From assembly GCA_900473745.1 (NCBI GenBank), contig UCMW01000016.1, positions 1-64,000 of the forward strand: a stretch of DNA of 64,000 nt, written 5' to 3'. Position numbers and translations under genes: made by a program. The stretch comes from Hyphomicrobiales bacterium. GTDB lineage: Bacteria > Pseudomonadota > Alphaproteobacteria > Rhizobiales > Rhizobiaceae. Of the stretch, positions 15,486-24,455 are shown one piece after another. Each line of letters starts with the position of its first letter. Position 1 is the first letter of the stretch. The notes beneath the pieces are model-generated. The model made no database searches. It saw only the letters and a program-made list of their open reading frames with translations, and was not told the DNA's origin.

Positions 15486-16310
15486 ATGGCAGTTCTCGGC
15501 GTATCTGGAATGCAGTATTCGGGAGAAACCTTTCCCGATGTTCGGATCGTTCTCGGAGAGGACTCCAACGTCTTCACCCAGATGATCAGTCAACGCCTCA
15601 AGGAACTGATGGGCGTCGATATCGAGATCTGCCGGACCTTCGAGGATCTGCAGATGGCGAACGAGCTCTCGGACGAACCGGTAAAGCTCGCGATCTCGAA
15701 CATCAACCTGCCGGGTGCTGAAAACGGCGAAGCGCTCGAATACCTCATCGACTGCAACATCCCGACCGTCGTCTTCACCGGCACTTTCCAGGACGAGATG
15801 CGCGAGAAGCTGCTGGCCAAGGACATCGTCGACTACATCCTCAAGGACAATATCTTTGCGGTCGAGATGCTGGCGGAATCGGTCTATCGCTTCCTCACCA
15901 ATCATCGCCATCATGTGCTCATCGTCGATGACAGCCCGACGGCGCGTGCGCTTCTCTCGAGCCGTCTCCGCCGCTATAATTTCCGCGTCAGCCTTGCTGA
16001 AAGCGGTGCGAAGGCGATCGAGATCCTGAAGGCGAATTCGGACATCGGGCTTGTGGTCACCGACTACAACATGCCCGATATCGACGGTTTCGAGCTGACA
16101 CGGCGCATCCGTTCCGTGCGCGGCTCGCACGAGCTTCGAATCATCGGCGTCTCATCGTCGACCAACCGGCTGCTGTCGGCCCGTTTCCTGAAGGTGGGCG
16201 GCAACGACTTTATGCTGCGCCCGTTCATCGACGAGGAATTCTACTGCCGTGTCAATCAGAACCTCGACACTCTGGTGCAGATTAAAGCTGCGCAAGCCCG
16301 CAAAAAATAG
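15486..16310 (+). CDS. double-receiver response regulator, first receiver degenerate
   Basis: 274 residues with two receiver domains in tandem (about 19-137 and 142-262) and no output domain. In the second, the acidic pair DD148-149 and phosphoacceptor D193 (TDYNMPD) are present, but the usual lysine is Arg (LRPF). In the first, the acidic pair ED25-26, T98 and K120 remain, while the phosphoacceptor position is Asn72 (SNINLPG). It is therefore probably a pseudo-receiver that cannot be phosphorylated normally. ATG 15486 has AAGG six bases upstream. The next gene is a paralogue with a GGDEF domain, so this protein may act as a partner or phosphate sink for it. Confidence 0.9.
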   Translation: MAVLGVSGMQYSGETFPDVRIVLGEDSNVFTQMISQRLKELMGVDIEICRTFEDLQMANELSDEPVKLAISNINLPGAENGEALEYLIDCNIPTVVFTGTFQDEMREKLLAKDIVDYILKDNIFAVEMLAESVYRFLTNHRHHVLIVDDSPTARALLSSRLRRYNFRVSLAESGAKAIEILKANSDIGLVVTDYNMPDIDGFELTRRIRSVRGSHELRIIGVSSSTNRLLSARFLKVGGNDFMLRPFIDEEFYCRVNQNLDTLVQIKAAQARKK

Positions 16311-16396
16311 GTGCGACTTATAACCAACGACGCTAAGCTCCGGCCATTGGGGGGAGATCGCTTATTAAGCGGTCTCGGAAGAGTGGCAGGTAGTTT

Positions 16397-17719
16397 ATGT
16401 ATTTTCCCGAACAGATTTATGCGCGCGAGCCGTCTATGCAGCGCGGTCGGGCGGAGCAGGGGCGGATACTGGTCATTGAGGATTCGCGATCGCTGTCCTC
16501 GATCATGCGCCACAAACTCGAGACCGACTTCTCCTGCCAGGTAACCCAGTGCGCCTCGGCAGATGTCTTCAGAGAGGTCATGCAGGGCGGGCAAACTTTC
16601 GACGTGGCGGTCGTCGATCTCAACCTTCCGGGCGCCTCCGATGGTGAGGTTCTCGATGCCGTGATCGCCGAGGGCATTCCGGCCGTGGTCTTCACCGCCG
16701 ACTTCAATCGGGACCTGCGCGAGCGACTGCTGCAGAAGGGTGTCGCCGACTACCACGTCAAGAACAACGAGCATGCGATCGATCTCGTCCTATCCTCGGT
16801 CATCAGGCTCCTGGGCAATCGCGATGTCGGCGTGCTCGTGGTCGATGACCTACCGTCCGCGCGCACGATGCTGGCAGACCTTCTGCGGGTGCAGAAATTC
16901 CAGGTTTATGAAGCCTCGACGGGATATCAGGCAATGGAGATCCTCGCCCGTCAGCCGCATATCGAACTCGTCATCACCGACTATCATATGCCCGACATGG
17001 ACGGTTACGAGCTGACACGGCGGATCCGGCGCGACCACAGCAGCGATCGGCTTCGCATCATCGGGATTTCGTCATCTGCCGATCGGCTCCTCTCGGCGAG
17101 CTTCTTGAAGGCCGGCGCCAATGATTTCGTCTACAGGCCCTATGTCATCGAGGAACTACAGTGCCGGATCCAGCACAATATCGAGACTTTGGCGCAGCTC
17201 CAGCAACTGCGCGTGGCCGCCTTCAGTGACTATCTGACGGGCTTGCCAAACCGGCGCTATTTCTTCGATGCGGGACCGGCACAGGTCGCCGGGCGGCTGG
17301 AGCGGGCAGAACCCTGCTGCATCGCCATGCTCGATATCGACCATTTCAAGAAGCTTAACGATACCTATGGTCACGAGATCGGCGATCGCGTGCTGCAGGC
17401 CGTGGGCGCGAAGCTCGCGCGCCGGCTGGAAGGCAGTGGCCACCTGCTGGCGCGGCTCGGCGGCGAGGAATTCAGCGTGCTGATTCTGGGACTCGATGTC
17501 GAGGCCGGTTCAGCGCTCTGCGAAACACTGCGCAGCGATATCGAATCCCTGCGCGTCGCGCTGGACGATCAGGATCTGAACGTCACGATTTCGATCGGGC
17601 TGGCTGAAATCGCCGGGCGCGAGAGCTTCAGCAACTATTTGGCGGCTGCCGATCAGCTGCTCTATCTCGCCAAGAGCTATGGCCGGAACCGGGTCTATTC
17701 CGAGAGCATGCTTTCCTGA
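16397..17719 (+). CDS. double-receiver GGDEF diguanylate cyclase (PleD-like)
   Basis: 440 residues: receiver 1 (about 15-135, acceptor Asp in VVDLNLPG, Lys in YHVKNN), receiver 2 (about 142-262, acceptor Asp in TDYHMPD, Arg at the usual Lys in VYRPY), then GGDEF (about 270-435) with LARLGGEEFSVLI and AMLDIDHFKKLND intact. The layout matches Caulobacter PleD, in which phosphorylation of the first receiver drives dimerisation and cyclic di-GMP synthesis. No RxxD inhibitory site precedes GGEEF. Receivers 1 and 2 are clearly related to those of the gene 86 bases upstream, so the pair arose by duplication. No cognate kinase is adjacent. Confidence 0.92.
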   Translation: MYFPEQIYAREPSMQRGRAEQGRILVIEDSRSLSSIMRHKLETDFSCQVTQCASADVFREVMQGGQTFDVAVVDLNLPGASDGEVLDAVIAEGIPAVVFTADFNRDLRERLLQKGVADYHVKNNEHAIDLVLSSVIRLLGNRDVGVLVVDDLPSARTMLADLLRVQKFQVYEASTGYQAMEILARQPHIELVITDYHMPDMDGYELTRRIRRDHSSDRLRIIGISSSADRLLSASFLKAGANDFVYRPYVIEELQCRIQHNIETLAQLQQLRVAAFSDYLTGLPNRRYFFDAGPAQVAGRLERAEPCCIAMLDIDHFKKLNDTYGHEIGDRVLQAVGAKLARRLEGSGHLLARLGGEEFSVLILGLDVEAGSALCETLRSDIESLRVALDDQDLNVTISIGLAEIAGRESFSNYLAAADQLLYLAKSYGRNRVYSESMLS

Positions 17720-22812: not shown

Positions 22813-24348
22813 TCAGGCGAACTGCCGGCGGCGGGGCTCAACGGCCTTGACTTCGCTGATGGCCGGGAGACTTTCCAGCACGCGGCTGGACGGCAGGATC
22901 GCAACGACTTCCGTGCCTTCGCGCAGCTTCGACCTCAGCTTGAACTCCCCGCCATGCTTGGCGAGGATCGCTTGAACGATGGGGAGCCCGAGGCCTGTTC
23001 CCTGTTCTGCACTCTTGATGGCGATTGAGCCCTGACCGAAGGCCGAGAGCACGACCGGGATTTCGTTTTCCGGGATGCCCGGGCCATTGTCGCGGATCGA
23101 AACATATTGGCCGCCGCCCGCGGTCCAGCCGGCCTTCACGACGATCTCGCCGCCCTGGGGGGTGAATTTCACGGCGTTCGACAGGAGGTTCAGGATGACC
23201 TGGCGCAAGGCCTTCTCATCGGCCCAGAGTGACGGCAGGCCGCGTTCGAACTGTTCCTCTATGCTGATGTTTTTCGACTTGGCGCGCAACTGGATCATGC
23301 CGATGCAATCCTCAGCCAGTTCCAGCAGTGAGACGCTTTCCTCGCTGAGCTCGTATTTGCCGGCCTCGATGCGCGACAGGTCGAGGATCTCGTTGATCAA
23401 TTCGAGCAGATGGCTGCCCGACCGGTGAATGTCGCCGGCATATTCCTTGTAGAGCGGATTGTTGAGCGGTCCGAGCACTTCCGTCGCCATCACTTCGGAG
23501 AAGCCGAGGATGGCGTTCAGCGGCGTGCGGAGTTCGTGGGACATCGAGGCGAGGAAGCGCGATTTCGCCATGTTGGCTTCCTCGGCCCGACGGCGCGCCT
23601 CGTCCGAAAGGGATTTTGCCACTTCCAGTTCCGCAATCAGGTCGTCCTTTTCCGTCTGATAGGAAAGAAGTTTCAGATTGGCCTGATGCAGGCGGCTCGT
23701 GATGTAGATGAAGAAGATCAGGGCCGTCGTGAAGACGGCGGTCAGGCCGAGATCTAGGATGTTACCGCCCGTGCCGGCCACATAGGTGAGCGCCACAACC
23801 GTCGGCAGGAAGCCGAACAGCACCGCTTGACGGAGAAGCATGCTGGCCATGGCGGTTATCGAAAGCGCCAGGAGCAGGACGGCGCCCTTATAGAAGATAA
23901 AGGCCGTCGGGTTGCAGCTGGCACAGTCCTGCAGGGCGAAGATCGCCCAGGACATGCCCATGGCGACTTGCGACAACAGCAGGAGGCGCCGCCATTTGTG
24001 CTGGTTGTCGAGGGTGATCTCGTGCTTCGAGGCGCGCCGGACCAGCAGGATGCCGATCGCATGCATGGTGAGCGCAAAGAGACCCCAGACGAGGAAGTGC
24101 GGTTGCGCGGTGAAATAGGCCCCGGAGGCGGCGATAAGCAGCGTGATGAGCGGGATGACGGCAGCGCCCTGCAGGGATGCTGCCACATGCATGCCAAGCA
24201 TTTCGACATCGAAGGCCGGCGATGAGCCCTGCGGAGATTGCAGTCGCTCCCGGGTTGCGCGGACGGCACGTGTCGTTGCCCTGTTGCGCGAGCTGCGCGT
24301 CAGGTCCAGAACGTTTTTGTCCGCCGATGTGTCTACGCCGTTACTCAT
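22813..24348 (-). CDS. membrane sensor histidine kinase (PdhS/DivJ-like catalytic core)
   Basis: 511 residues. Residues ~50-230 form about six membrane helices, followed by a coiled segment (LIAELEVAKSLSDEARRRAEEA). The H-box is FLASMSHELRTPLNAILGFSE (phospho-His), then come the N-box LRQVILNLLSNAVKFTPQGG, the G1 box RDNGPGIPE, the F-box FGQGS and the G2 box GTGLGLPIVQA. All catalytic elements are intact. The core resembles the PdhS/DivJ/PleC cell-cycle kinases of alphaproteobacteria, which would fit the PleD-like gene at 16397 as a possible partner, but that link is inference. No response regulator is adjacent. Confidence 0.9.
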   Translation of the reverse strand: MSNGVDTSADKNVLDLTRSSRNRATTRAVRATRERLQSPQGSSPAFDVEMLGMHVAASLQGAAVIPLITLLIAASGAYFTAQPHFLVWGLFALTMHAIGILLVRRASKHEITLDNQHKWRRLLLLSQVAMGMSWAIFALQDCASCNPTAFIFYKGAVLLLALSITAMASMLLRQAVLFGFLPTVVALTYVAGTGGNILDLGLTAVFTTALIFFIYITSRLHQANLKLLSYQTEKDDLIAELEVAKSLSDEARRRAEEANMAKSRFLASMSHELRTPLNAILGFSEVMATEVLGPLNNPLYKEYAGDIHRSGSHLLELINEILDLSRIEAGKYELSEESVSLLELAEDCIGMIQLRAKSKNISIEEQFERGLPSLWADEKALRQVILNLLSNAVKFTPQGGEIVVKAGWTAGGGQYVSIRDNGPGIPENEIPVVLSAFGQGSIAIKSAEQGTGLGLPIVQAILAKHGGEFKLRSKLREGTEVVAILPSSRVLESLPAISEVKAVEPRRRQFA

Positions 24349-24455
24349 TGCGTTGCAGTCTTCCGCGCCTTGCATGAACCCTAGCGGCGAATTCTTAAGA
24401 AGATCCTGTCTCGGAAGGATTTGTTTGCCATGTGTGAAAAGGATTCGTTCTTGAA

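Follow-up and report, generated by a model that had tools for sequence, protein, structure and literature searches.

The double-receiver locus

The window, i.e. the whole stretch of 64 000 nt of Rhizobiaceae DNA that was analysed, contains two neighbouring genes on the same strand, separated by 86 bases, whose products are 43 % identical over their receivers (Table 1). As had been proposed in a preliminary description of this DNA, Pfam assigns two Response_reg stretches to each protein and a GGDEF domain to the second one only, with no other domain above its cut-off in the first. The Asn that had been noticed at the acceptor position of receiver 1, where the paralogue has Asp, and the Arg replacing the usual Lys in both second receivers were also borne out by translation, leaving the first protein with a receiver 1 devoid of its acceptor Asp and a receiver 2 devoid of its Lys. 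Taken alone, receiver 1 of this protein reaches 25.9 bits, which is under the Pfam family cut-off of 30.2. The start of the first open frame is backed by 80 orthologues (the best 80 of 374 relatives), which match from residue 1. A scan for promoters and terminators gave no signal above shuffled sequences.

Table 1. Features of the claR locus, with positions counted from the first nucleotide of the window
Feature	Position	Strand	Details	Basis
claR (very probable orthologue)	15486–16310	+	274-aa double receiver, no output domain	translation and Pfam
ClaR receiver 1, pseudo-receiver	15537–15899	+	residues 18–138; Asn at acceptor; E25, D26, T98, Y117 and K120 kept	
Ser71	15696–15698	+	codon TCG; beside Asn72	
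Asn72, phosphoacceptor position of receiver 1	15699–15701	+	codon AAC; context LAISNINLPG	
ClaR receiver 2	15909–16265	+	residues 142–260; D148, D149, D193 and S223 kept; Lys to Arg245	
Asp193, acceptor of ClaR receiver 2	16062–16064	+	codon GAC	
Arg245, Lys position of ClaR receiver 2	16218–16220	+	codon CGC	
Paralogous probable diguanylate cyclase	16397–17719	+	REC-REC-GGDEF, 440 aa	translation and Pfam
Asp74, acceptor of cyclase receiver 1	16616–16618	+	codon GAT; context AVVDLNLPG	
Arg247, Lys position of cyclase receiver 2	17135–17137	+	codon AGG	
GGDEF domain of the second protein	17219–17692	+		Pfam

The second gene probably encodes a diguanylate cyclase, judging from its sequence, in which the GGEEF motif is intact and the RxxD I-site is absent. 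The earlier designation of this protein as a PleD-like cyclase holds for its REC-REC-GGDEF architecture but not for its identity, as it scores 203.6 bits with the NCBIfam PleD model, against a cut-off of 474, and a separate gene of the same genome reaches 698 bits. This true pleD lies on contig C28 (L197, 475–1848, minus strand); in the second receiver of its product, Asn occupies the acceptor position and Arg replaces the Lys, and the gene is directly preceded by a gene for a 123-aa single receiver, which has no NCBIfam match at 1e-30 and which we take to be DivK. The assignment of the second gene as DgcB was also rejected, since DgcB is not a response regulator according to an extract of PMC7003649. 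For both proteins of the locus, the best NCBIfam match is CbrR, a bile resistance response regulator (NF050064, 415 positions), and the matches are collinear (residues 20–265 of the first protein and 22–433 of the cyclase). Nevertheless, with scores of 136.7 and 213.4 bits, respectively, against a cut-off of 600, neither was accepted as a CbrR equivalog, and the first protein, unlike CbrR, has no GGDEF domain.

The first protein is predicted to fold as a double receiver. The mean pLDDT of its structure model is 78.8 and the five models span 60.0 to 78.8, for which reason the inter-domain angle was left unused. The solved structures that appear nearest, by both sequence and fold, are 3LUF and 3MF4 (response regulator/GGDEF domain protein), followed by PleD. 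The match to 3LUF extends over residues 19–269 (E 2.3e-49), although 3LUF and 3MF4 differ from the modelled protein in showing 35–36 % identity and a modest overall fit (TM 0.54–0.56).

Elsewhere in the window, a histidine kinase is encoded at 22813–24375 (minus strand), the transmitter of which is most similar to those of PdhS and TorS (194.7 bits each) and then DivJ (186 bits), all below the cut-off. A search of 14 family genomes found the kinase in every one of them, but near claR in this genome only; it was rejected as a conserved claR neighbour, as in all 13 other genomes the best match shares a contig with claR at a distance of 53–848 kb.

A very probable further member of the ClaR family

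The first gene is very probably an orthologue of claR of Agrobacterium tumefaciens, an assignment that links the locus to a known regulator of attachment to surfaces. Over residues 1–271, the protein shares 81 % identity with the orthologue of A. tumefaciens strain CNPSo 675 (L085), which has both N72 and D193, and the next paralogues are far off at 43–46 %. In the work of Feirer et al. (2017), A. tumefaciens ClaR, a CheY-like double receiver, reportedly has N72 in receiver 1 and a D193 in receiver 2 that is present and dispensable, and it is said to repress attachment independently of phosphorylation, with its effect depending on PruA and PruR. Like that protein, the window protein is a double receiver without an output domain, and its N72 and D193 presumably fall at the published positions. 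The A. tumefaciens gene is also taken to be atu1631 (rrpX). In an extract of PMC9138961, atu1631 is given as rrpX among genes called EPS-related. The ClaR family, which occurs in soil and plant bacteria, is already described (Feirer et al. 2017, Microbiology 163:1680) and the window protein is a further member of it, with a REC-REC-GGDEF paralogue directly downstream of its gene, unlike at A. tumefaciens L085. What the present analysis adds is the family-wide conservation of Asn72 and the partial independence of ClaR from its neighbour.

Conservation and origin of ClaR

A total of 271 double-receiver open frames were gathered from the named, family and genus genomes, including 159 assigned to the ClaR class by a score of more than 350 bits against the window protein; the 112 others did not exceed 223 bits. 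Asn72 was found in all 159 ClaR-class frames (143 distinct sequences, the window protein and those of near-identical species being counted), as well as in 80/80 named-genome loci (the best 80 of 374 relatives). The equivalent position in the 112 relatives outside ClaR is occupied by Asp (98), Gly (10), Ala (2) or Asn (2). Asn72 is fixed throughout the ClaR group and is not a peculiarity of one strain; the preliminary description had named variation of this residue among orthologues as a ground for abandoning its idea, and the residue is kept throughout. A GGDEF match was found in none of the 159 frames.

The remainder of the receiver 1 pocket is also constant, with E25, D26, T98 and K120 invariant in 159/159 frames and Y117 in the 143 distinct sequences. 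Given that 29 of the 121 receiver 1 positions are invariant, the chance that the four other pocket residues would all be among them is 0.0025, or 0.0005 when Y117 is included. For a plain lock, which could lose its pocket, such complete invariance is unexpected. Pseudo-receiver control 'remains a mystery' according to an extract of a 2025 review (PMC12632262), and a single D-to-N change in an otherwise invariant pocket offers a clean natural test of it. In receiver 2, D148, D149, D193, S223 and R245 are invariant in 159/159 frames, and the most conserved elements of ClaR are β1, β4, α4 and α5 of receiver 2, together with β3 of receiver 1 (mean conservation of 0.99 for α4 and 0.96 for α5 of receiver 2).

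In an outgroup-rooted tree that included 10 ClaR sequences (A. tumefaciens L085 not among them), ClaR was recovered as a single clade with 100/100 support, branching among REC-REC-GGDEF cyclases, in agreement with the paralogy of the two genes proposed earlier. A supported split separates the family, ClaR included, from six double-receiver proteins of other families, and the GGDEF part is matched by five of these six. Loss of the GGDEF domain and the D-to-N change would most simply be placed on the ClaR stem, a direction that depends on the position of the outgroup, with the exact sister group left unsettled by the tree.

ClaR was found in 70 of the 297 family genomes and was absent at E 1e-30 from 227. 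In a sample of the class, 7/384 other genomes gave a match, none with a ClaR-class protein, and the matching open frames (358–529 aa) were merely 32–39 % identical. Five of the 509 matching records in a plasmid collection were 60–80 % identical, all of them Shinella or Sinorhizobium records of 3.5–4.6 Mb, and the next reached 37 %. In the Sinorhizobium meliloti record CP090106.1 (2242462–2243282), the claR match is split in two, which may reflect a frameshift or an error in sequencing. A metagenome bin titled Arenimonas (L030, JAIBEK010000059.1) also contains a claR locus that shows 89 % identity to that of the window, probably as a result of a binning error.

Relationship between ClaR and the adjacent cyclase

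The paralogue is located directly downstream of claR in 46 of the 70 family loci, which suggests some functional link between ClaR and the cyclase, and in 32/80 named loci (the best 80 of 374 relatives). A GG(D/E)(D/E)F-type motif was detected in 74 of the 78 adjacent paralogues, at least one of which is cut by a contig end. Among the 46 of the family, the paralogue at L127 is cut by a contig end and those at L149 and L153 are output-less. No adjacent paralogue was found at the 24 other family claR loci; 6 of these genomes have an unlinked one and 18 have none at E 1e-30, with eight candidates scored per genome. The figure of 18/70 is an upper bound, as the adjacent paralogues of genomes G163 and G278 fell below this cut-off, and four of the 18 loci (L092, L094, L095 and L096) extend no further than about 1.5 kb past claR. 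A paralogue in the absence of ClaR was found in 9/297 family genomes. Within the 8.8 kb of A. tumefaciens claR locus L085 there is no paralogue, and the gene next to claR encodes a PLD-domain protein on the opposite strand.

The two proteins also differ in their rate of divergence. Across 78 paired loci, the median receiver identity is 78 % for ClaR versus 39 % for the cyclase, with ClaR showing the higher conservation in 99.8 % of pair comparisons. The distances of the two proteins correlate (0.82), as expected from shared species history alone. The identity of ClaR to its consensus is 0.839 at the 46 loci with the neighbour and 0.843 at the 24 loci without it (P = 0.44). The neighbouring cyclase, although often present, is unlikely to be the cause of the strict conservation of ClaR, because it is missing at many loci and diverges more, and because ClaR stays equally conserved without it. 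The idea that ClaR mainly exists to bind the adjacent cyclase is weakened by these comparisons of sequences; ClaR would be partly uncoupled from its neighbour, and some other partner probably keeps it so constant.

Two genomes belonging to a single genus have output-less neighbours of claR (L149, 2841–3755, and L153, 2874–3755, both on the plus strand), which form with it a tandem of two double receivers without GGDEF, of which one has Asn and the other Asp.

Proposed mode of action

The explanation favoured here, to which a probability of roughly 0.6 is given as a whole, is that the first gene encodes a ClaR orthologue of single origin that acts as a phosphate-insensitive adaptor, binding a conserved partner through the face of receiver 2, with the cyclase being optional. 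ClaR would have arisen once, within Rhizobiaceae, from a REC-REC-GGDEF protein by loss of the GGDEF domain and replacement of the receiver 1 acceptor Asp with Asn. With no acceptor Asp in receiver 1, and with the Asp of receiver 2 retained and its switch Lys changed to Arg, as in the second receiver of this genome's PleD, the protein would function as a constitutive adaptor, whose independence of phosphate is suggested by the result reported for A. tumefaciens together with the invariance of Asn72 and Arg245. Through the nearly invariant α4–β5–α5 face of receiver 2, it would bind a putative conserved partner and thereby keep attachment and outputs dependent on cyclic di-GMP low, the repressive role being that reported for A. 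tumefaciens. The neighbouring cyclase would be an optional, faster-diverging companion and not an obligate target. In a crude test for a pterin operon, the gene layout of a pruR–dcpA-like pair was sought at the three PF00174 loci of this genome, each covered over about 3.5 kb, and no GGDEF gene was found at any of them. According to an extract of PMC12632262, the α4–β5–α5 face is a common receiver surface for dimerisation or partners, and the second domain of PleD is involved in the change by which PleD comes to dimerise. The conserved receiver 2 face of ClaR may instead reflect a homodimer or folding.

The adjacency of the two genes is also compatible with a dominant-negative role, in which ClaR would pair with the adjacent cyclase by PleD-like receiver contacts to give a mixed dimer that, having only one GGDEF domain, makes no cyclic di-GMP. 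Such a role gives a concrete form to the binding or inhibition of the cyclase suggested in the preliminary description. Common ancestry of the two proteins, a similar α4 of receiver 2 (RLLSARFLK versus the consensus RLLSASFLK) and the short distance between genes on the same strand, kept adjacent in 46/70 family and 32/80 named loci, all point in this direction. However, this role is rendered unlikely by the 24/70 claR loci without the cyclase (including at most 18/70 genomes without such a paralogue) and its absence from an A. tumefaciens claR locus, by the lower identity of the cyclase receivers (39 % versus 78 %) and by the undiminished constancy of ClaR where the cyclase is missing. Receiver 2 could alternatively take phosphate from a kinase on Asp193, or bind the kinase, and thus draw phosphate away from other regulators. 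The invariance of D148, D149, D193 and S223 would suit such a sink or competitor, yet the replacement of Lys by Arg245 in 159/159 frames, the reported dispensability of D193 in A. tumefaciens and the fact that the nearby kinase gene is not a conserved neighbour make it very unlikely.

Another alternative is offered by CheY D57N, in which phosphorylation reportedly occurs at Ser56. Receiver 1 of ClaR would be a natural counterpart of this protein if it were switched, via the retained T98-Y117-K120 pathway, by partner binding or by phosphorylation of residue 71 instead of Asp; a literature search for the CheY D57N precedent found nothing usable. Of the 143 distinct ClaR sequences, 140 have Ser and 3 have Thr at residue 71, compared with Ser or Thr in 12/112 relatives outside ClaR, and E25, D26, T98, Y117 and K120 are all invariant. 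On the other hand, when 36 receivers with an acceptor Asp were taken from the 30 best-matching PF00072 loci of this genome, 8 of them also had Ser or Thr just before the acceptor, so that, in view of both counts, its presence is not rare in itself, and it is its retention in ClaR that matters. Some room for a residual switch in receiver 1, via Ser/Thr71 phosphorylation or partner binding, is left by its invariant pocket, whereas D, T and K are each found in only about 65 % of pseudo-receivers according to an extract of PMC12632262. Such a residual switch is nevertheless considered unlikely, and a full counterpart of CheY D57N very unlikely.

Acceptor loss in other paralogues

Substitutions at the receiver 1 acceptor were also observed outside ClaR. 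Three claR-adjacent paralogues have Gly at this position (L048, 4866–6218; L059, 5284–6648; L093, 2784–3815, minus strand). A clade of REC-REC-GGDEF proteins that are not encoded beside claR has Gly or Ala there and constitutes a second lineage with loss of the Asp, in which the GGDEF domain is kept; its members, with open-frame positions counted on the strand named, are found at L175 (995–2254, minus strand), L180 (1408–2772), L181 (1318–2745), L187 (1356–2804, minus strand), L188 (1244–2701), L192 (1734–3059, minus strand), L189 and L190.
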